DNA of 27,715 nt, from positions 334 through 28,048 of IMG/VR virus record IMGVR_UViG_3300030107_001470, one strand, 5' to 3'. Positions 4,454 through 27,069 of the stretch are shown here, piece after piece. The translations under genes were made by a program, and so were the position numbers. The notes under the pieces were generated by a model that was given only the letters and a program-made list of their open reading frames with translations, was not told the DNA's origin and made no database searches. How positions within the stretch are numbered: the stretch's first letter is position 1; each line of letters starts with the position of its first letter. Source of the DNA: a virus.

Positions 4454-6076
4454 ATGTCGCAACTCTTTGGATTTTCACTAGAGAGAGCAAAGAAGGTTCC
4501 TAAGGGGCCTTCTTTTGTTCAGAAGGATAGTTTAGATGGATCGCAACCTATCGTAGGTGGTGGTTACTATGGCTATTCGGTTGACTTTGATGGTCAATTA
4601 CGTAATGAGTATGAGTTAATTACTCGTTACAGGGAAATGGTTTTGCAACCAGAATGTGATAGTGCGGTTGATGATGTAGTCAACGAAACTATATGTGGTA
4701 ACTTTGAAGACGTACCAATTGCTGTAGAGTTATCAAATTTAAAACAATCAGAAAAAATTAAGAAGTTAATTCGTGAGGAGTTCGATGAAATTCTCCGTCT
4801 TCTTGATTTTGATAATAGATCTTATGAAATCTTCCGTCGATGGTATGTTGATGGAAGACTTTTTTATCATAAAGTAATCGATCCTAAAAACCCTAGAGGT
4901 GGATTGGTTGAATTACGTTATGTAGATCCTCGTAAGATTCGTAAGGTAACTGAGTATGAGGCAAAGAATCCTAATCAGTTACGAACTCAAGACCTTAATC
5001 AACAACTAACACAGCAAAGTGCTAGTTACTATCTGTATAATCCAAAAGGTTTACGGAATGCTACGAATCAGGGTATGAAAATTGCACCAGATTCAATTAG
5101 TTATTGCCACTCTGGTATTCAAGATCTTAATAAAAATATGGTCTTGTCTCATTTGCACAAAGCAATCAAGGCAGTTAACCAACTGCGAATGATCGAAGAC
5201 TCTCTTGTTATCTACAGATTGTCACGTGCTCCAGAAAGAAGAATTTTCTATATTGATGTAGGTAACCTTCCAAAGAATAAAGCGGAACAATATCTACGTG
5301 AAGTAATGGGTCGTTACAGGAACAAACTTGTATACGATGCACAAACTGGTGAGATTAAGGATGACAAAAAATTCATGTCTATGCTAGAAGACTTCTGGCT
5401 TCCTAGACGTGAAGGTGGTAGAGGAACTGAGATTACTACATTACCTGGTGGTCAGAACCTTGGAGAACTAGAAGACGTTAAGTACTTCCAGAAGAAACTA
5501 TACAAATCACTGAACGTTCCTAACTCAAGATTGGAAACAGAGACTACCTTTAACATAGGTCGTGCTGCTGAGATCACAAGAGATGAGGTTAAGTTCCAGA
5601 AATTTGTTGCACGTTTACGCAAACGTTTTGGGGAATTGTTTATTGATCTTTTAAAAACACAATTAATTTTAAAAGGTATCTGTTCCATTGAAGAATGGGA
5701 AGATATGAAGGAACATATCCAATTCGATTTTATTGCTGATAACTATTTCTCAGAATTGAAGGACATCGAAATCCGTAACGAACGGATGAATGAAGTCAAT
5801 CAAATGGATCCTTATGTTGGTAAGTACTTCTCTATAGAACATATTCGTCGTCACGTTCTTAAACAGACAGACGTAGAAATGAAAGAAATCGATAAACAGA
5901 TTGAGAGTGAAATGGAACAAGGACTTATTTCTGATCCAGCGATGGAAATGGAAATGGGTATGGAAGCAGGTGTTGATCCAGCTGCTATGGGTGGAGATCC
6001 AGCTGCACAAGCGGGGGCTGCACCCGACCCAAAGTCCGTAGTTAATGCTGCCGATCAACGTAGGGCGGAATTTTAA
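4454..6076 (+). CDS. 20: Portal vertex protein gp20
   Basis: Dodecameric portal through which the genome is packaged and ejected; it also nucleates head assembly. 540 residues, near T4 gp20 (524). Visible conserved segments are YRNKLVYDAQTGE, then SMLEDFWLPRREGGRGTEI, then LPGGQNLGELEDVKYFQKKL, all hallmark portal sequences. The C-terminal ~60 residues are low complexity (a Met/Glu run followed by Ala/Gly/Pro-rich sequence). It sits between gp19 and the head-assembly genes, and carries a terminator-like hairpin at codons 13-21 (see 4492-4516). This is the gene widely used as a cyanomyovirus marker. Confidence 0.97.
   Translation: MSQLFGFSLERAKKVPKGPSFVQKDSLDGSQPIVGGGYYGYSVDFDGQLRNEYELITRYREMVLQPECDSAVDDVVNETICGNFEDVPIAVELSNLKQSEKIKKLIREEFDEILRLLDFDNRSYEIFRRWYVDGRLFYHKVIDPKNPRGGLVELRYVDPRKIRKVTEYEAKNPNQLRTQDLNQQLTQQSASYYLYNPKGLRNATNQGMKIAPDSISYCHSGIQDLNKNMVLSHLHKAIKAVNQLRMIEDSLVIYRLSRAPERRIFYIDVGNLPKNKAEQYLREVMGRYRNKLVYDAQTGEIKDDKKFMSMLEDFWLPRREGGRGTEITTLPGGQNLGELEDVKYFQKKLYKSLNVPNSRLETETTFNIGRAAEITRDEVKFQKFVARLRKRFGELFIDLLKTQLILKGICSIEEWEDMKEHIQFDFIADNYFSELKDIEIRNERMNEVNQMDPYVGKYFSIEHIRRHVLKQTDVEMKEIDKQIESEMEQGLISDPAMEMEMGMEAGVDPAAMGGDPAAQAGAAPDPKSVVNAADQRRAEF
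4492..4516 (+). other. Terminator-like hairpin inside the 5' end of gp20
   Basis: GAAGGTTCC (4492-4500), loop TAA, GGGGCCTTC (4504-4512): nine consecutive pairs of which two are G-U, followed by TTTT. It begins 38 nt after the gp20 ATG and about 70 nt after the CTAAATA element. Structure is read from the sequence; a regulatory role is inference and chance is possible in coding DNA. Confidence 0.4.
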
Positions 6077-6086
6077 TAAATAAATA
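6074..6086 (+). promoter_or_regulatory. Possible late promoter element after gp20
   Basis: TAATAAATAAATA contains two overlapping ATAAATA late-type elements, starting at the gp20 stop codon and ending 17 nt before the next ATG (6104). The short distance makes it weaker than the other late elements. Confidence 0.45.
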
Positions 6087-6103
6087 CTAAAGTGGGAATT
6101 ATT

Positions 6104-6478
6104 ATGCCTAGTGAAATTGCCAATAAAATTGTAGATCATATCTTTAGCGACGAAAAAGCGAAAGCAGTAGACGCTACTAATGATGCAATTAGTGCAACTA
6201 CATATGACGCTATTCAAGCAAAGAAACTTGAATTTGCAAAAGAGTGGGGATTCAATCCAGATCAAACTGGACAGTCTACTGCTGATGAACTCGAAAATTC
6301 TATGCCAGATGGTAGTGAAAAACCTGAATTGGCACCTACTGCTACTGAAGTTGATCAACAAGATCAACAACCAGAAGTAGAAGAACCAGAAGAAATCCCA
6401 GATCCATTACCACCAAATACTGCGGTAGTTGATTCAATCGAACCAATAGAGGAACCCAAAGATGAGACTGATAGCTGA
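6104..6478 (+). CDS. Small acidic head protein between gp20 and gp21 (prohead core candidate)
   Basis: 124 residues from ATG 6104, which has GGGA at 6094-6097; a GTG four codons upstream (6092) would overlap that site and is less likely. The N-terminal two thirds looks helical (IANKIVDHIFSDEKAKAVDA). The C-terminal ~45 residues are extremely acidic and proline/glutamine rich. In T4 the small prohead core genes 67 and 68 lie exactly here between portal and protease, so a prohead core or scaffold accessory role is inferred from position, size and charge rather than from a recognisable motif. The 3' end overlaps gp21 by 17 nt, suggesting coupled translation. Confidence 0.7.
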   Translation: MPSEIANKIVDHIFSDEKAKAVDATNDAISATTYDAIQAKKLEFAKEWGFNPDQTGQSTADELENSMPDGSEKPELAPTATEVDQQDQQPEVEEPEEIPDPLPPNTAVVDSIEPIEEPKDETDS

Positions 6479-7109
6479 AGAAATAACTCAAGTAGAATTT
6501 CTATCTGAGGAAAAAGACGGTAAGAGGTCACACTTCATTGAAGGTGTATTTCTACAAGCAGAGATACAGAATAAAAATGGACGTAAGTATCCATTATCTA
6601 CACTTCAACGTGAAGTTGCTAAATATACTGAGAATCATATCCATAAAGGACGTGCTCTTGGTGAGCTTGGCCATCCCGATGGTCCTTCTCTAAATTTAGA
6701 TCGTGTTTCTCATAAGATAGAATCTTTGAAAGAAGATGGAAATAATTTCATCGGAAGAGCAAAGATACTTGACACTCCTATGGGTAAGATTGCAAAGTCA
6801 CTTCTTGATGAAGGTGTACGTTTGGGAGTTTCTTCCAGAGGTATGGGTTCATTAAAGACTGAAAGTAAAGGTTGTTCTGTTGTTCAGGATGACTTTATGC
6901 TTGCAACTGCTGCAGATATAGTAGCAGATCCTTCAGCTCCTGATGCATTTGTAGATGGAATTATGGAAGGAAAAGAATGGGTATGGGATAATGGCATCTT
7001 GAAAGAGTCCCATGTTGCTCAATTTAAGCAAGAAATAGATGCTGCAACCCTTATAAACATCCAAGAACGGAAGGTTTCCGCATTTGAGAAGTTTTTAAGA
7101 AGTATTTAA
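6462..7109 (+). CDS. 21: Prohead core protease gp21
   Basis: Serine protease that cleaves scaffold and capsid proteins after prohead assembly. 215 residues, near T4 gp21 (212). The herpesvirus-assemblin-like catalytic residues are visible: His71 in GELGHPDGPS and Ser124/Ser125 in RLGVSSRGMGSL. The N-terminal GVFLQAEIQNKNGRKYP strand is typical. The start overlaps the preceding acidic gene by 17 nt and has GAGGAA at 6449-6454. It is followed by scaffold gp22 and capsid gp23, its expected substrates. Confidence 0.95.
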   Translation: MRLIAEEITQVEFLSEEKDGKRSHFIEGVFLQAEIQNKNGRKYPLSTLQREVAKYTENHIHKGRALGELGHPDGPSLNLDRVSHKIESLKEDGNNFIGRAKILDTPMGKIAKSLLDEGVRLGVSSRGMGSLKTESKGCSVVQDDFMLATAADIVADPSAPDAFVDGIMEGKEWVWDNGILKESHVAQFKQEIDAATLINIQERKVSAFEKFLRSI

Positions 7110-7111
7110 TT

Positions 7112-19769: not shown

Positions 19770-20026
19770 TGTTCATCTTAGTCGATAAGAATACTGGTGG
19801 TGTTTATGCTGTCAGTAATAACAAGCAAACAAAGACAGTCCATATGTTTGAGCAAAAAGAAGATGCTGAAAGATATATGGGTTATTTGGATGCGTCCAGT
19901 TATGGAAAACCTTTGGAACTAATGAATATTGATGTTAATGCTGTTGCTATAAACTGTGAAAAGTTCGGTTATACTTATGCAATTGTTTCTAAAAACGATT
20001 TAGTTGTCCCTCCTATTAAAGAATGA
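19769..20026 (+). CDS. DUF3110-like small protein between gp47 and gp46
   Basis: 85 residues: MFILVDKNTGGVYAVSN, then MFEQKEDAERYMGYL, then NIDVNAVAINCEKFGY. The FE-x-x-x-DAERY core and the Cys-x-x-x-GY ending resemble DUF3110, a small family known from cyanobacteria and plants. Sandwiched between the two subunits of the nuclease with TAATG and ATGA overlaps at each end, so its synthesis is stoichiometrically linked to gp46 and gp47. T4 also has small genes between 46 and 47, but I see no clear homology to them. Function unknown. Confidence 0.75.
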   Translation: MFILVDKNTGGVYAVSNNKQTKTVHMFEQKEDAERYMGYLDASSYGKPLELMNIDVNAVAINCEKFGYTYAIVSKNDLVVPPIKE

Positions 20027-21744
20027 TCGTATTTGAGAGCATCAAGTGGAAGAACTTTCTTTCTACTGGTGACCAATGGACTGAGATCCAATTGAATGAT
20101 AGTCCATCTACACTTGTTGTAGGTACTAACGGTGCAGGGAAGTCTACTATGTTAGACGCTCTGTGCTTTGCTTTATTCAATAAACCTTTTCGTAAAATTA
20201 ATAGAGGGCAATTAGTTAATAGTATAAACGAGAAGGGACTAAAAGTTGAAGTATGTTTTTCTATAGGTAAAGATGAATACAGAGTTTTCAGAGGTGCAAA
20301 ACCCAATCTCTTTGAGGTTTACAAGAACAATAAGATGGTTGACCAAGAGGCTGCTGCCAAAGACACGCAGAAGTATCTGGAACAATCAGTACTCAAACTC
20401 AACTTTAAGTCCTTTACACAAGTCGTCATCCTCGGATCATCCACTTTTGTCCCATTCATGCAACTCGGAGCAAGTGTCAGGAGAGAAGTTATTGAAGATC
20501 TACTCGATATCCAGATCTTCTCAAACATGAATACACTCTTGAAAGATCGAATGCGAAATACATTAGGTCAGAGTAAAGATTGTAAACACCTTTTAGGTAT
20601 TGCTGAAGAGAGAGTACAGTTACAACAAAAATTAATTGATTCCCTTAAGGAAGTTAATGAGACAAGAAAAAAAGAAAAGGAGAAAAAGCATAAAGCAAAT
20701 GCAAAGGATGTAATTGAAAAGGAAAAACTACGTATATCTAAGAAAGCAGAATTAAAAGAACGTGAGAAGGAAGTAATTGATATTGCAGAATATAAAACTC
20801 AATTACAATCATTACGTAATGAACAAGCAGAGAATAAAGCAGAACTAAAACGTCTTACAAAGGAAGCAAAGTTTTTTGAGTCTAATGATGTTTGTCCTAC
20901 TTGCACTCAAGCAATTGGTAAGACATTTAAAAAGAGTAAGATGTCAAAGCTTAAAACTAATGGAGTTGCATTAACTAAAGAAGTCTCGAAATCTAAAGAA
21001 AGTATTAAGGATGTATTAGAAACTATTGATAAGATTGAAACTATTTCTTTAGAATTGTATGAACTTCGTACTGAAATATCTAATCATGAAAGAGAAGTAG
21101 TTCGTATTGAATTAGAAAATTTAGAAATAAAAAAAGAATTACAAGAGTTAAAGGATAACACTCCTAATATTGATAAGGAGATGGAGACTATTAGAACTTT
21201 GGAATCCCAGTTAGATAAAACTCAAAAAGATTGTTCTGAAATTAATAAGACTCTTGATGAGTTTCAAGTTGTGTCAACTCTATTAAAAGATTCTGGTATT
21301 AAGAGACAGATTATTAAAAAATATATTCCTATTTTTAATAACTTAATTAATAAGTACTTACATAGTATGGATACCTTCTTTAACTTCACTCTTGATGAGG
21401 AGTTTAATGAAGTTATCAAGAGTAGATTTAGAGATGAGTTTAGTTACTCTTCTTTCTCTGAAGGTGAAAAGCAGAAGATAGATCTAGCACTTCTCTTTAC
21501 ATGGAGAGAGGTAGCACGTATGAAGAACTCTGCTGCTACTAATCTTCTTATACTTGATGAAGTATTTGATAGTTCTCTTGATGCTTCTGCTACTGGTGAA
21601 CTTCTTACTATACTTTTAAAGTTAGGAGGAGATACTAATCTATTTGTTATATCACATAAAGGTGATATACTTAGGGATAAATTTAAGAGGTGTCTTAGAT
21701 TTGAAAAGATTAATGATTTTTCTAAAATGACGGATGATGAATAA
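20023..21744 (+). CDS. 46: Recombination endonuclease subunit gp46 (SbcC/Rad50-like)
   Basis: SMC-type ATPase partner of gp47. 573 residues (T4 gp46 is 560). Walker A GTNGAGKST (34-42); coiled coil from ~180 with a zinc hook CPTC (Cys291, Cys294); second coiled coil; signature SEGEKQ (479-484); Walker B LLILDEVFD (Asp512, Glu513); and a switch His in VISHKGD. The start overlaps the DUF3110-like gene (ATGA). Codons in ~20340-20530 shift to C-ending ones (CTC, GTC, ATC, TCC), unlike the AT-rich coiled-coil part. Confidence 0.97.
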   Translation: MIVFESIKWKNFLSTGDQWTEIQLNDSPSTLVVGTNGAGKSTMLDALCFALFNKPFRKINRGQLVNSINEKGLKVEVCFSIGKDEYRVFRGAKPNLFEVYKNNKMVDQEAAAKDTQKYLEQSVLKLNFKSFTQVVILGSSTFVPFMQLGASVRREVIEDLLDIQIFSNMNTLLKDRMRNTLGQSKDCKHLLGIAEERVQLQQKLIDSLKEVNETRKKEKEKKHKANAKDVIEKEKLRISKKAELKEREKEVIDIAEYKTQLQSLRNEQAENKAELKRLTKEAKFFESNDVCPTCTQAIGKTFKKSKMSKLKTNGVALTKEVSKSKESIKDVLETIDKIETISLELYELRTEISNHEREVVRIELENLEIKKELQELKDNTPNIDKEMETIRTLESQLDKTQKDCSEINKTLDEFQVVSTLLKDSGIKRQIIKKYIPIFNNLINKYLHSMDTFFNFTLDEEFNEVIKSRFRDEFSYSSFSEGEKQKIDLALLFTWREVARMKNSAATNLLILDEVFDSSLDASATGELLTILLKLGGDTNLFVISHKGDILRDKFKRCLRFEKINDFSKMTDDE

Positions 21745-21746
21745 CT

Positions 21747-22067
21747 ATGAGATTTAAAGCAACTGTAAATGTAAGACTAAGAGGATCTGTATCAGATGCT
21801 GCTGGTAATGCTGTGATGAATAATACTCACAGGGTTGCTGAAGGTCTTCAATCACATCTATTGCGAATTGGTAAGGTAATTGATTATTGGTTTGATGCAA
21901 AAGATTATGAAACAGCAGAGAAAGAGTTATTTAAACTTAGTGATTTGTTGTTGGCAAATACTGTAGTGGAAGATTGGAGTTATGAATTGACAGAAACAGA
22001 AGAGACTGGCATAGGAAATATATCAAATGATAATGCTGGTACATCAAAACATAGTATATTTGATTAA
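21747..22067 (+). CDS. purS: Phosphoribosylformylglycinamidine synthase subunit PurS-like
   Basis: 106 residues. KATVNVRLRGSVSDAAGNAV, then LRIGKVIDYWFDA, then LLANTVVEDWSYEL follow the PurS pattern (N-terminal strand, DxxG loop, VGK-type strand, then LLANPVIEDY). PurS bridges PurL and PurQ in the FGAM synthetase complex, the step just before PurM. The last ~20 residues (NISNDNAGTSKHSIFD) extend beyond the usual ~84-residue family length. It starts 2 nt after gp46, and its stop overlaps the next ATG (TAATG). No purL or purQ is in this window; the host enzymes or genes elsewhere must supply them. Confidence 0.85.
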   Translation: MRFKATVNVRLRGSVSDAAGNAVMNNTHRVAEGLQSHLLRIGKVIDYWFDAKDYETAEKELFKLSDLLLANTVVEDWSYELTETEETGIGNISNDNAGTSKHSIFD

Positions 22068-22304: not shown

Positions 22305-24461
22305 ATGGCAAACTCAGAAGTAAAAGGAACACTTGCTAGACTGTTAGCAACAGAAAATCTTACTGTAGAACATCGTAAGGTTAGTACTGCATCGTTTGAT
22401 GTTAATAATCGTGTTCTTGTTCTTCCTATTTGGAAGACTGCTTCTGATACTGTTTATGACCTTCTAGTTGGACATGAAGTCGGACATGCTCTATATACCC
22501 CTAACATTCCTATAGACGCTCCTAAAGCGTTTGTGAACGTCATAGAGGATGCACGTATAGAACGTATGATGAAGGTTACATATCCTGGTCTTCGCAAGTC
22601 TTTCTTTGAGGGTTATCGTGAGTTATGGCATCAAGATTTCTTTGGTGTTGCTGAGACAGATGTTAACCAGATGTCCTTTATTGATAGAATCAATCTTTAT
22701 TTTAAAGGATGTGTTGATTTAGAATTTACAGATGAAGAGCAAGTATATGTAGATCGTGCTGCTAAAACAAATACTTTCCAAGATGTTATAGATCTTTCTA
22801 ATGATTTGTATGAGTATGCTAAGGGTAAAGAAGATCAGAAAGAAAGTATAACACCACCTCAAGTTGATATGGATCTTGAAATGGATCTACCTCAGGATAC
22901 TGATGAGCAAGAAACAGTAACTCCTGACAGACCTGATTTGGGTGAGGACGATACTGAGTATGAAGATGGTGAAGGTGATAGACAGGATGGTAAGGAAGGT
23001 GGTGACACTTCTGATTTAGAGACACCTAGTTATGAAGCAGGTAATGAAGAGTGCGATGAACTTAAGAGTGAAACTGAAGAAGCACTTAGACAGGCATTAG
23101 AAACATTAGTTGATGATGATGACAGAGAGTGGATTTATTTAACTACTCCAGAAATAGATATTGATAGTGCTGTTATAGATTATTGGACAGTACAGGAAGA
23201 TCTTTATTATCATTATGAAGGGTATGCTACCGCAGATAAGCACACTCATGATTGGATGTTTGGTCAACTTAGAGAGGCAAAGCAACAGTATTTAAATTCT
23301 AAGAAGGAAGCACAACGTAGTGTTAACTATCTTGTTAAGCAATTTGAGATGAGAAAATCTGCTGATGAGTATAAGAGAGCAGCAGTTTCTAAAACAGGTG
23401 TTATTAATACAAATTCTTTATTCAAGTATAAGATTACTGATGATATCTTTAAGAGAGTTACTACTGTTAAAGAAGGTAAGAATCATGGTTTGGTAATGTT
23501 TATTGATTGGTCTGGTTCTATGCAGCATCAATTAATTGATACTCTTATTCAGACTTACAATCTTGTTTGGTTCTGTAAGAAAGTTGGTATTCCTTTTAGA
23601 GTTTATGCATTTCAATCTGCACATTCTAGCAGAGGTGAAGTTCATCCTGCTATTAAAAATCCTAAGAATAATATTTTAGGACTGACTGGTGACTTTGCAT
23701 TATTAGAATTCTTTTCATCTAAACAGAATGCTAAGTCTCTAGAGAAGTCTATGATGTATATTTACTGTCAAGCATATGGTATGTCACGTCATGGTTTATC
23801 TTATATGCATAAGTATACTCTTGGTGGTACTCCTCTTGCTGAAGCAGTAATTTGTGCTCCTGCACTTGTTGATAGACTTAAGAGAATTGAGAATGTTACT
23901 AAGGTAAATGTAGTTTGCTTATCTGATGGTGAATCACAACCTATGGTTTATCTTAAAGAGAAATCTGGAGATCAATATTATTATAATGGTGATGATGATT
24001 TTATAACTAGATCAATTCAATACAGTTCAAGACACCAGAAATTTATTCTTAGAGATCCTAAGACTGGATACTCTAGAGAGATTTCATCTTCTCCATACGA
24101 AACTACAAAAGAGATTGTTAGCTTCTATAGAGAGATTACTAATTACAATTGGGTTGGTATTCGTATCTGTACTGGAAATGAATTGAAAAGGTTCTTACGC
24201 ACTTTAACATGGGAGGAATCTGAAGTTGTTGACAAACAATGGAAGAGAGAAAAGTTTGCATCTGTTAAGATGAATGCAGGATTTACAGAGTCTTTCTATA
24301 TTGCAGATAAATCATTAGGTGGCAATACTCAAGATCTTGAAGTTAAGCAGAAGGGTGAAGTTGCTACTAGGGCAGAACTAGGACGTGCATTTAAAAAGCA
24401 CATGGGTTCTAAGATGACTAATAAAAAAGTCCTTAATGCATTTATTGAGCAGATAGCATGA
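22305..24461 (+). CDS. Zincin + von Willebrand A (CobT-like) protein
   Basis: 718 residues in three parts. Residues ~1-180 carry a metalloprotease-like HEVGH motif (57-61) and a downstream IEDARIER segment (Glu81) that could supply the third zinc ligand. Residues ~180-260 are a very acidic linker (Glu/Asp/Gln). The C-terminal half holds a VWA domain with MIDAS residues DWSGS (401-405), Thr509 in GGTPLAEA and Asp541 in CLSDGES. This layout resembles CobT-like proteins that pair with CobS/MoxR AAA+ ATPases; such an ATPase is at 25996. Cyanophage relatives are often annotated only as peptidase. Overlaps pebS by 4 nt (ATGA). Substrate unknown. Confidence 0.85.
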   Translation: MANSEVKGTLARLLATENLTVEHRKVSTASFDVNNRVLVLPIWKTASDTVYDLLVGHEVGHALYTPNIPIDAPKAFVNVIEDARIERMMKVTYPGLRKSFFEGYRELWHQDFFGVAETDVNQMSFIDRINLYFKGCVDLEFTDEEQVYVDRAAKTNTFQDVIDLSNDLYEYAKGKEDQKESITPPQVDMDLEMDLPQDTDEQETVTPDRPDLGEDDTEYEDGEGDRQDGKEGGDTSDLETPSYEAGNEECDELKSETEEALRQALETLVDDDDREWIYLTTPEIDIDSAVIDYWTVQEDLYYHYEGYATADKHTHDWMFGQLREAKQQYLNSKKEAQRSVNYLVKQFEMRKSADEYKRAAVSKTGVINTNSLFKYKITDDIFKRVTTVKEGKNHGLVMFIDWSGSMQHQLIDTLIQTYNLVWFCKKVGIPFRVYAFQSAHSSRGEVHPAIKNPKNNILGLTGDFALLEFFSSKQNAKSLEKSMMYIYCQAYGMSRHGLSYMHKYTLGGTPLAEAVICAPALVDRLKRIENVTKVNVVCLSDGESQPMVYLKEKSGDQYYYNGDDDFITRSIQYSSRHQKFILRDPKTGYSREISSSPYETTKEIVSFYREITNYNWVGIRICTGNELKRFLRTLTWEESEVVDKQWKREKFASVKMNAGFTESFYIADKSLGGNTQDLEVKQKGEVATRAELGRAFKKHMGSKMTNKKVLNAFIEQIA

Positions 24462-25087
24462 GTAATTTATGGGATGGATATAGGGAAGCGGTATTCAATA
24501 CGTTTCCCGATATGGTTTTTGAAAGTAACCATACAACTTGGAAAAATAAAAGAGGTGTCAATCTGACTGCTGACCGATATTCTGGTAAGCATTTTATTAA
24601 GTCTAGGCACGTTGATATATGGGATGATACTATTAACATCCATAATAATGTAATCTATCCTAAGACAGGACATAACCTTCCTTGCTTTGGTATGGACTTG
24701 ATGGGATTTAATAAAAAGAAAGTTATAATAGTATTTGACTTTCAACATCCAGTAGAGAATTATCTATTGAAAGTACCACCATTACCTCAGACAACAGAAA
24801 CATATCGTTTCTTTGAGAAGGGTAATCATTTCTCTGATAATATCTTTGTGAGGTATTGTGAGATGGATATGGTTAATACATATCTTCCTACATTTAAATA
24901 TTATTTGTCACTCTATAAAGAGATGATAGATAAGGCACAACCGACTGAAGAAGATACTACAGTCTATAAAGATTTTGATTCCTATATGATAAGATTGGAT
25001 CCTATCTCAGGATATCTTTCTAATCAATTTGGTAAAGAAGAATCGGAACAATTAATCAAGGAGTTCTTTTTTAGTTATGCAGAATGA
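24458..25087 (+). CDS. pebS: Phycoerythrobilin synthase PebS
   Basis: Ferredoxin-dependent bilin reductase converting biliverdin IXa to phycoerythrobilin in two two-electron steps. 209 residues. Near-identical blocks to the PebS of Prochlorococcus phage P-SSM2 as I recall it: YPKTG, LPCFGMDLM, KKVIIVFDFQHP, YRFFE-GNHFS-NIFVRYC, KEMID and EDTTVY-DFD-YM. The two aspartates essential in P-SSM2 PebS (105 and 206) correspond to Asp80 (GMD) and Asp181 (LDP). The protein is ~24 residues shorter at the N-terminus. Coupled to the VWA-zincin gene (ATGA) and overlapping pcyA by 11 nt. No heme oxygenase gene is in the window to make biliverdin. Confidence 0.95.
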   Translation: MSNLWDGYREAVFNTFPDMVFESNHTTWKNKRGVNLTADRYSGKHFIKSRHVDIWDDTINIHNNVIYPKTGHNLPCFGMDLMGFNKKKVIIVFDFQHPVENYLLKVPPLPQTTETYRFFEKGNHFSDNIFVRYCEMDMVNTYLPTFKYYLSLYKEMIDKAQPTEEDTTVYKDFDSYMIRLDPISGYLSNQFGKEESEQLIKEFFFSYAE

Positions 25088-25766
25088 TATAGTACAAGAC
25101 ATAGCAGTATTACTTTCATATACTATGCAAGATATTACTGGTGTGGAACCTTTAGAGAGTCCTATAGGGGAAGTTAAAAAGGATGATTTGATTATTAGGA
25201 ATACGATGTATAAAGCACCTGGTCTCAGGAAAATACATTTAGAATTGGCAGAGATTAAAGGGATGAAGATATTACATTCTGTATTCTTTCCTGATCCAAA
25301 TTATAATATTCCTATCTTTGGGTGTGATATTGTTGCTACTGATAAGGTAGTGACTGCTGCTATAGTTGATATTTCTCCTGTATCAGGGTTTGATAAATGG
25401 GATGATGTTAAAGAGATTAGTAATGAATTTAATATTGGTGAGAAGAGAGAACTTCCTTCATGGGGTGGAGAAATATTTTCTCCTTATTGTAAGTTTATGC
25501 GTCTTACTGAAGATATAGATATGGCAAATTTTTACTGTCTTGTTTTAAATTATCTTGGAATATATTGTAAGACAGTTGCATCTGCTGAGAAGGGAAGTAT
25601 GGAGGATGCATATAAAAGGTATCAAGATCAATGTAAGTACTGTGATCAACAAAGAAAGAATGATAAGACTCGTGGAATTTTAGAAAAGTGGTTTGATAAA
25701 GAATGGGTTGATCATTATATTGATGAGGTATTATTCTGTAAACCAAAACCTATGTTGGTATTATGA
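25077..25766 (+). CDS. pcyA: Phycocyanobilin:ferredoxin oxidoreductase PcyA
   Basis: Reduces biliverdin IXa to phycocyanobilin with four electrons from ferredoxin. 229 residues (Synechocystis PcyA is 248). Matching segments: MYKAPGLRKIHLELAE, ILHSVFFPDPNYNIPIFGCD, VDISPV, RELPSWGGEIFSPYC, QQRKNDKTRGILEKWF. The three PcyA active-site residues (Glu76, His88, Asp105 in Synechocystis) align with Glu56, His67 and Asp84. That argues for PcyA-type chemistry, though the phage-type PcyX (PcyA-related, phycoerythrobilin product) must be excluded by phylogeny. It overlaps pebS by 11 nt and the next small gene by 4 nt. Confidence 0.93.
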   Translation: MQNDIVQDIAVLLSYTMQDITGVEPLESPIGEVKKDDLIIRNTMYKAPGLRKIHLELAEIKGMKILHSVFFPDPNYNIPIFGCDIVATDKVVTAAIVDISPVSGFDKWDDVKEISNEFNIGEKRELPSWGGEIFSPYCKFMRLTEDIDMANFYCLVLNYLGIYCKTVASAEKGSMEDAYKRYQDQCKYCDQQRKNDKTRGILEKWFDKEWVDHYIDEVLFCKPKPMLVL

Positions 25767-25930
25767 AACAAACTAAATGGTCTGCTTACGTTTTGTTACA
25801 ATCTAATAGATTGACAAAAGTTGAGTTCCTTTGTGCGTCTAACTTAAGAGAGGATGCAGAACAAAGATGTAAAGCTTTGTTTGGGTCTAGTGATATCAGG
25901 CAATTGAAGAGAGAGTGGACAGATCTATAA
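25763..25930 (+). CDS. Hypothetical 55-residue protein after pcyA
   Basis: ATG 25763 overlaps the pcyA stop (ATGA). The 55-residue product starts MKQTKWSAYVLLQSNRLTKV and ends KREWTDL. It is predicted strand-then-helix (EFLCASNLREDAEQRCKALFG), with two cysteines. The overlap style matches the whole operon, which supports real translation. No family recognised. Confidence 0.6.
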   Translation: MKQTKWSAYVLLQSNRLTKVEFLCASNLREDAEQRCKALFGSSDIRQLKREWTDL

Positions 25931-25944
25931 GTGTCTACTCTGGC

Positions 25945-25972
25945 TTGTTTCTTTAAGCCTCTATGCTATAAT
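25945..25972 (+). promoter_or_regulatory. Sigma70-type promoter upstream of the CobS-like gene
   Basis: Perfect -10 TATAAT at 25967-25972 with a weak -35 TTGTTT at 25945-25950 (16-nt spacer). A five-pair hairpin (GGCTT/AAGCC, 25942-25958) overlaps the -35 region. ATG 25996 follows with AAAGGAC at 25987-25993. Confidence 0.6.
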
Positions 25973-25995
25973 TAATATATCAAAACAAAGGACTT

Positions 25996-27069
25996 ATGAC
26001 TTTCAAAGCAAAATTCTCAGACAAAGATCTGATTTCATTCTTCAAAGTTGGAGATGTAAATAGTGACCAAGTAAAAGAATTTGCTGATAGTCAGGGTGTT
26101 CAGATTCAAAGTGTTACTAAGAGAATGAACAAACTACCACAGTTCTCTAAAATTGGACGTGGTAAATGGAATTTAACTTTAGCAGAAAGATTAGAGAAGA
26201 CTTATAATGCAACATCAACAGAATCGACAACGGTCAAATATGTTCCAGAGCGTGATCAAAACTATGTACCCTTTGGGAACGCACCGTCTCTTAAGAAGAT
26301 TGTTTCTTCTAGACAGTTTTACCCTGTTTTTATTACTGGTCTTTCTGGTAATGGTAAGACATTAGGAGTAGAACAAACATGTGCTCAACTAAATAGGGAG
26401 CTCATCAGAGTAAACATTACTATAGAAACAGATGAAGATGATCTTATCGGGGGGTTCCGTCTTGTTAATGGCGATACCGTCTGGCACAACGGACCAGTTA
26501 TTGAAGCTCTCGACAGAGGGGCTGTATTGCTCCTTGACGAAATCGACCTTGCCTCAAACAAGATTCTCTGTCTCCAGTCCATCCTTGAAGGTAAAGGAGT
26601 TTTCCTTAAAAAGATTGGAAAGTACGTCAAACCAACAGCAGGATTCACAGTCATCGCCACCGCAAATACTAAAGGTAAAGGTTCAGACGACGGAAGATTT
26701 GTTGGAACTAATGTGCTCAACGAAGCCTTTCTCGAAAGATTCCCAGTAACTTTTGAACAGGACTATCCTTCAGCAGCGATAGAGACAAAGATTTTATCTA
26801 ATGTTGGATGTGAATTGACATTTGCTGAAAATCTGGTAAAATGGGCAGGAGTGATAAGAAAAACATTCTTCGATGGAGGAGTGGATGAAGTTATTACAAC
26901 TCGTCGATTAGTTCACATAGTTCAAGCATATCAGATCTTTGGTGATCGTTTAACTGCTATTACTAATTGTGTGAATCGTTTCGATGATGATACAAAGCAG
27001 TCATTCCTTGATCTATATACCAAGGTTGATGCAGGAGAATCAAACGAGGAGGAAGATGCCAGTATATAG
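25996..27069 (+). CDS. cobS: CobS/MoxR-like AAA+ ATPase
   Basis: 357 residues. Walker A GLSGNGKT (115-122), Walker B LLLDEIDLA (Asp181, Glu182), sensor-1 ATANTKGKG with Asn224, and a candidate arginine finger Arg248 (FLERF). Residues ~8-62 form a small helix-rich, possibly winged-helix domain not typical of CobS. CobS with CobT and CobN inserts cobalt into the corrin ring in B12 synthesis, and cyanophage copies are usually called cobS. However MoxR-type AAA+ proteins also work with VWA partners as remodelling chaperones, and the likely partner is at 22305. No cobN-like gene is present here. The central part (26450-26760) uses strikingly C-ending codons. Confidence 0.85.
   Translation: MTFKAKFSDKDLISFFKVGDVNSDQVKEFADSQGVQIQSVTKRMNKLPQFSKIGRGKWNLTLAERLEKTYNATSTESTTVKYVPERDQNYVPFGNAPSLKKIVSSRQFYPVFITGLSGNGKTLGVEQTCAQLNRELIRVNITIETDEDDLIGGFRLVNGDTVWHNGPVIEALDRGAVLLLDEIDLASNKILCLQSILEGKGVFLKKIGKYVKPTAGFTVIATANTKGKGSDDGRFVGTNVLNEAFLERFPVTFEQDYPSAAIETKILSNVGCELTFAENLVKWAGVIRKTFFDGGVDEVITTRRLVHIVQAYQIFGDRLTAITNCVNRFDDDTKQSFLDLYTKVDAGESNEEEDASI

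Follow-up and report, generated by a model that had tools for sequence, protein, structure and literature searches.

A putative AAA+/VWA machine with a zincin-like domain, encoded around the bilin reductase genes of a virus and shared with conjugative elements

We analysed a stretch of viral DNA of 27,715 nucleotides (positions 334 to 28,048 of IMG/VR record IMGVR_UViG_3300030107_001470; hereafter the window), which is nearly the whole of this 28,048-base virus record. Two genes of the window, located on either side of pebS and pcyA, encode a MoxR-type AAA+ ATPase and a large protein that combines an N-terminal zincin-like domain with an acidic linker and a VWA module carrying a metal ion-dependent adhesion site (MIDAS). 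Our preferred reading, to which we give roughly even chances, is that both products belong to one AAA+/MIDAS/zincin machine and that this machine acts on proteins of DNA recombination or replication by remodelling or cleaving them. That the pair is a general machine for protein remodelling and not for chelation appears probable, and a target in DNA metabolism seems about equally open in either direction.

Results

The predicted zinc site and the MIDAS of the large protein are conserved

The large protein is a full-length member of phrog_459, annotated as 'peptidase' (E 1e-286), and has no match above cut-off in Pfam or NCBIfam, the CobT models included. In its predicted structure, three strands are followed by a helix with the HExxH motif (residues 48-64) and a second helix with a glutamate motif (74-92), an arrangement modelled as in zincins. 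The HExxH motif together with a conserved glutamate on the following helix, found in the alignment as well as in the model, marks the domain as a candidate zincin metallopeptidase. An earlier note on this DNA, made from the sequence alone, had pointed out the HEVGH motif, and this holds: in an alignment of 56 homologues with 16-79% identity to the window protein, P41, H57, E58, H61, N78, E81, D82, G95, D401, S403, S405, F436, D541, and G542 are invariant. Overall, the residues of HEVGH and of the full MIDAS (D401-x-S403-x-S405, T509, D541) are invariant or near-invariant over these homologues, far beyond chance. Because some of the loci had been retrieved by means of HExxH, we prefer the count from loci fetched through the ATPase gene, where the motifs play no part in selection: HExxH...ED.RIE and MIDAS are kept in all 47 distinct partner proteins. 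Among all distinct phage-type proteins, the three motifs were present in 134/134.

The best solved match of the VWA module is the VWA domain of NorD (9qh6_G; Z 16.3, 263 aligned residues, root-mean-square deviation 5.3), followed by the MIDAS domain of midasin (Z 15.6). Sequence comparison of the phage profile with proteins of solved structure gave no match. Aspartate and glutamate make up 37% of the linker region (residues 181-255). A rearranged version is found in Pseudoalteromonas phage XG4 (record marked UNVERIFIED; 4869-7111), where the large protein is split and swapped: an open reading frame for the VWA part is followed by a separate one for the zincin part (HEVSH ... EDIRIE), the ATPase gene, and gp45/gp44-like genes. 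The zincin and VWA domains of this phage may work in trans.

The two genes are an obligate pair and the bilin reductases are occasional cargo

The two genes are an obligate pair: the partner was present in each of the 57 loci that were fetched through the ATPase and extended more than 2.5 kb upstream. An ATPase gene without the VWA gene in most phages, which the earlier note had named as an outcome that would speak against its proposal, was thus not what co-occurrence revealed. Among annotated phages, 458 records contain a near-full copy of each gene, and a pcyA-like gene occurs in only 27 phage records. The flanking of pebS and pcyA by the AAA+/VWA pair, on which the earlier note was based, is confirmed by the best matches of both reductases (Table 1). 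Across viral loci, 48/149 have bilin genes, and in 69/149 the two genes of the pair are at most 300 bp apart with no bilin gene. The slot between them is a variable site, with bilin reductases as occasional cargo.

The ATPase is separate from genuine CobS

The ATPase belongs to phrog_249 (E 9e-135) and matches AAA_5. With its gene adjoining a VWA gene with complete MIDAS, this MoxR-branch protein and its partner correspond in gene content to the MoxR-VWA pairs. NorQ and CbbQ are the closest solved structures of the ATPase core, and a phmmer search places midasin in the same AAA branch (E 8e-48). CobS structures (9ujv among them) were found by sequence and were missing from the structural comparison; we draw no conclusion from this. 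The extra N-terminal domain mentioned in the earlier note is indeed there, with a predicted secondary structure (H-E-H-H-E-E) that is winged-helix-like. This domain lies outside the core machine, as the N-terminus is much shorter in the plasmid-type and Ochrobactrum-phage ATPases.

The window ATPase scores 65.2 bits against TIGR01650 (CobS), far below the equivalog cut-off of 558.55. In a quick tree of 53 ATPases, with CobS taken from one phylum only, the phage-type clade (n=17) and the genuine CobS clade (n=16) are separate, each with 100% support in the Shimodaira-Hasegawa-like approximate likelihood ratio test (SH-aLRT). Clustering of the ATPase inside true CobS, another outcome that would have contradicted the earlier note, therefore did not occur. 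ATPases of the SSU5/RHEph10 type adjoin CobS in this tree with 87% support and long branches.

Genuine CobT has lost the zinc site

To sample genuine CobT we searched 200 genomes of a single phylum for PF06213 proteins and aligned these with their phage, plasmid-type, and cellular relatives. All genuine CobT proteins in this alignment have lost the zinc site, while all phage and mobile-element proteins keep HExxH. The three HExxH positions are in CobT mostly S or A, variable, and K or R, respectively (SLR in the protein CT_L241), and E81 is mostly kept. Direct profile comparison of the phage N-terminal domain with that of genuine CobT gave no detectable similarity (0.9%). The phage domain does match plasmid and phage intermediates (hhalign 98.5%, E 2e-15), which in turn match the genuine CobT domain (94.8%, E 5e-8) with HExxH aligned opposite the degenerate segment; in the zincin region, several of the intermediates score above the cut-off of PF06213 as well. 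Judged by these profiles, the phage zincin domain is homologous to the N-terminal domain of CobT (PF06213), through intermediates only. More than one loss of the zinc site appears in the tree of VWA domains, which is poorly supported, and we therefore do not argue for a single event.

The PF06213 'CobT' N-terminal family includes proteins with intact HExxH (from loci L210, L213, L215, L217, and L221). The family name therefore misleads.

The pair is found on conjugative elements and in hosts without CobN

Homologous pairs are present on plasmids and integrative and conjugative elements (ICEs) of Enterobacterales. Two plasmid searches returned 1,389 and 2,832 records, mostly conjugative, of which 1,063 cover at least 80% of the second query. 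HExxH, glutamate motif, and MIDAS were present in the IncA, IncC, SXT/R391-type, and Methylomonas plasmid copies checked. The occurrence of intact homologues on more than 1,000 plasmids, mostly conjugative and including IncA/C, as well as on SXT/R391 elements appears to be new. Drug-resistance plasmids are among the carriers.

The Xenorhabdus, Morganella, Nonlabens, Desulfacinum, and Methylocaldum genomes that we looked at had no PF02514 (CobN/ChlH) protein, and neither had E. coli as the control; a draft assembly may have gaps, which does not apply to the E. coli control. These genomes, or phages and plasmids of E. coli, carry the zincin-VWA gene, mostly together with the ATPase gene. A Prochlorococcus genome with a cyanophage-type copy encodes two CobN/ChlH-type proteins. 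The pair of Nonlabens xiamenensis is located on a 188-kb contig, the size of a T4-like phage, and its ATPase is 69% identical to that of the window; the contig is perhaps a co-sequenced phage.

Recombination and replication genes adjoin the pair

Genes for recombination or replication adjoin the pair in nearly every element examined, which likewise appears to be new. Of the 81 T4-like viral loci, 79 have gp46 upstream of the pair and 80 have gp45 downstream of it. In Ochrobactrum phage OC the pair is located between gp46/47 and the clamp gene, and in SSU5, RHEph10, nickie, BUCTxx99, and ICP2 it adjoins polymerase, primase, or helicase genes. The order is AAA-x-bet-exo-DUF3150-VWA on the IncA plasmid pRA1 and the IncC plasmid pKHM-1, and bet-exo-AAA-DUF3150-VWA on the Methylomonas plasmid. 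For pR997, which we take to be an SXT/R391-type element in agreement with its gene order, it is ssb-bet-exo-AAA-x-DUF3150-x-VWA-radC. A DUF3150 protein is encoded between the ATPase and VWA genes in all four of the IncA, IncC, SXT/R391-type, and Methylomonas arrangements, and is a possible third component.

Discussion

A model for the machine and the points against it

According to our model, both genes would encode one ATP-driven machine, in which the MoxR-branch AAA+ protein forms a ring and the large protein docks on it via its VWA/MIDAS module, like NorD on NorQ. The docked protein would carry the N-terminal zincin domain with its intact zinc site. A target protein would be recognised through the MIDAS, pulled at the expense of ATP, and cleaved or otherwise acted on by the zincin domain. 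Proteins on DNA or in the recombination or replication apparatus are likely targets, given that such genes adjoin the pair in phages unrelated to one another, in conjugative plasmids, and in ICEs. Cdc48-Wss1 and p97-SPRTN are pairs of an AAA+ protein and a DNA protease, and the mode of action might be similar. A narrower version, in which the pair is the mobile-element counterpart of these systems, clearing or processing proteins on recombining or replicating DNA, and CobT descends from a protein of this kind that lost its zinc site, is tentative and we would rather lean away from it.

Several observations weigh against this model. The 81 T4-like loci are one lineage with inherited gene order, so that the number of independent contexts is about eight to ten, and the context is weaker in Roseobacter phage CRP-810, where a gene for endonuclease V lies close by. 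When bet, exo, s067, s068, or s070 was deleted from SXT, transfer fell by at most 10-fold (PMC2791158); to judge from gene order, s067 and s070 would be the ATPase and VWA genes. A search of solved structures with the whole large protein gave VWA matches only, with the VWA domain filling the list and the zincin fold unmatched. Moreover, HExxH is missing from phages nickie and BUCTxx99 and the second motif is altered in ICP2; therefore, the zinc site is not essential everywhere. Both nickie and BUCTxx99 retain the MIDAS and the ATPase, and some phages may thus have a machine that functions with no zinc site.

Alternative explanations

One alternative is that of a viral CobST (PMC8651126), in which the pair contributes two subunits, AAA+ and VWA, to an aerobic cobaltochelatase, borrows CobN from the host, and raises B12 output. 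There is real similarity to CobS and, via intermediates, to CobT, and the Prochlorococcus genome mentioned above would offer a CobN-type partner. But the TIGR01650 score is a fraction of its cut-off, the large protein has no CobT match in Pfam or NCBIfam, the ATPase falls outside the CobS clade, genomes or hosts without CobN/ChlH contain the pair, and the zinc site kept in the phage proteins is lost in genuine CobT. We regard this explanation as highly improbable, and the earlier note's doubt about cyanophage cobS as a B12 gene is supported. Even less can be said for a module acting with PebS and PcyA on bilins, the first of two hypotheses in that note, which we consider almost certainly wrong. 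Adjacency and overlapping start and stop codons in the window speak for it, but bilin genes are so much rarer than the pair, so many loci with closely spaced genes are free of them, and the pair is also found in elements of non-phototrophs, including the plasmids and ICEs of Enterobacterales. On co-occurrence this candidate was rejected, being already largely refuted. Chelatase and bilin readings are poorly supported, and the second hypothesis of the note, a protein-remodelling or protease unit that merely neighbours the bilin genes, fits best.

Within this second hypothesis, a chaperone-protease that folds and processes structural proteins during virion assembly, as proposed for jumbo phages (PMC7824862), would agree with the intact peptidase and the MoxR-VWA architecture. 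A MoxR-VWA pair also aids tail assembly in Acidianus two-tailed virus, as cited in that paper. However, homologues occur in more than 1,000 plasmid records, the IncA, IncC, and SXT/R391-type copies checked have intact motifs in elements without virions, and the pair is located in replication and not in structural modules; we find this explanation rather unlikely, and a virion-only role cannot be general. The distribution appears too wide for a role in virions, with bilins, or in hosts with CobN alone. It does suit a protease for host takeover or counter-defence that removes or cleaves host or defence proteins attacking incoming DNA, since phages, conjugative plasmids, and ICEs alike reach a new cell in the form of naked DNA. 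But neither window protein matched the PADLOC defence models at E <= 0.01, no particular defence system could be linked beyond a weak match, of AAA type, between the plasmid ATPases and mad8 of the defence database, and the pair is so well conserved and constant in position that a housekeeping function for the element suggests itself. Counter-defence is therefore unlikely in our view, if still worth considering beside a role in recombination or replication.

Comparison with known systems

Carried by practically all marine T4-like cyanophages, cobS serves as a marker and is counted as an auxiliary metabolic gene for B12, with its function unproven (PMC9983427, PMC2984593). Neither the pair nor the peptidase-VWA reading is new. 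The same gene pair was named CobST, described as a core component of cyanophages that also occurs among tailed viruses of eight orders, and proposed to hijack host CobN, with cobT 'mistakenly annotated as a peptidase' (PMC8651126); in contrast, we find the zinc site intact and that of genuine CobT degenerate. The pair of group 2.2 jumbo phages has by its description the same architecture, with a metallopeptidase domain at the N-terminus of the vWA protein and a MoxR-type ATPase next to it; virion assembly was proposed there (PMC7824862), whereas here the context is recombination and replication and extends to plasmids and ICEs. Our tests favour the reading as MoxR plus metallopeptidase-VWA over CobST.

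Aerobic cobaltochelatase CobS-CobT (TIGR01650/TIGR01651; PF06213+PF11775) is likewise a pair of AAA+ and VWA/MIDAS proteins, with a CobT N-terminal domain homologous via intermediates, but differs in the lost zinc ligands of CobT and in the separate clade of its ATPase. NorQ-NorD and CbbQ-CbbO provide the closest solved structures, NorQ and CbbQ for the ATPase core and NorD for the VWA module. The CbbO-like partners at CbbQ/CbbO-type loci (L302, L304, L305, and L306) keep an EDxRxE stretch and have no HExxH, and the same ancestral zincin domain may underlie CbbO and NorD. Midasin/Rea1 shares the AAA branch and has a MIDAS module of similar fold, but, unlike the pair, is a single giant protein with six AAA modules that acts in ribosome assembly. 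To our knowledge, it has no zincin.

If an AAA+/zincin machine tied to DNA recombination is indeed encoded here, metabolic inferences on B12 drawn from cobS would be wrong, and the two conflicting published readings would be reconciled. A core phage function could then also be tested in hosts that are easy to handle, since IncC plasmids and SXT/R391 elements carry a machine of the same kind, and the finding would suggest how the CobT subunit of cobaltochelatase evolved.

Gene layout of the window

The four open reading frames of the earlier note are confirmed in position, all on the plus strand (Table 1). Upstream, a gene for PurS, a subunit of FGAM synthase, is located at 21747-22067 between gp46 and the pair.

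Table 1. Features of the pair, its cargo genes, and its left neighbour (positions of the window)
Feature	Position	Strand	Remark
gp46-type recombination nuclease subunit (SMC_N/AAA_23), conserved left neighbour of the pair	20023..21744	+	
Zincin - acidic linker - VWA(MIDAS) protein, phrog_459 'peptidase', 718 amino acids (aa)	22305..24461	+	Named CobT in PMC8651126
N-terminal zincin-like domain, aa 1-182	22305..22850	+	AlphaFold model, block confidence (pLDDT) 73-94 over aa 11-180
HEVGH, aa 57-61, predicted zinc ligands and catalytic Glu	22473..22487	+	
E81-D82-x-R84-I85-E86, predicted third zinc ligand on next helix	22545..22562	+	
Acidic disordered linker, aa 184-246	22854..23042	+	pLDDT mostly <50
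VWA module and C-terminal extension, aa 390-718	23472..24458	+	Structure search
MIDAS DWSGS, aa 401-405	23505..23519	+	Other MIDAS residues T509, D541
pebS, optional cargo gene in slot between pair	24458..25087	+	Best match PebS 2vck, E 6e-71
pcyA, optional cargo gene in slot between pair	25077..25766	+	Best match 2d1e, E 4e-43
AAA+ ATPase, CobS/NorQ/CbbQ branch of MoxR proteins, phrog_249, 357 aa	25996..27069	+	
Extra N-terminal domain, aa 9-60	26020..26175	+	Winged-helix-like by predicted secondary structure
Walker A GLSGNGKT, aa 115-122	26338..26361	+	Invariant or nearly so

The region had been described as one compact transcription region. This applies to the first three of the four genes, which overlap by 4 and 11 nucleotides, but not to the ATPase gene, which is preceded by a gap of 229 nucleotides. 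Passages on transcription timing in PMC5082946, PMC7238727, and PMC12753301 do not name the genes of the pair, and a promoter and terminator scan gave matches no commoner than in shuffled sequences. The gap (25767-25995) has a more stable fold than its shuffles (z -2.8) and contains TATAAT, and may harbour a promoter of its own or a processing site.

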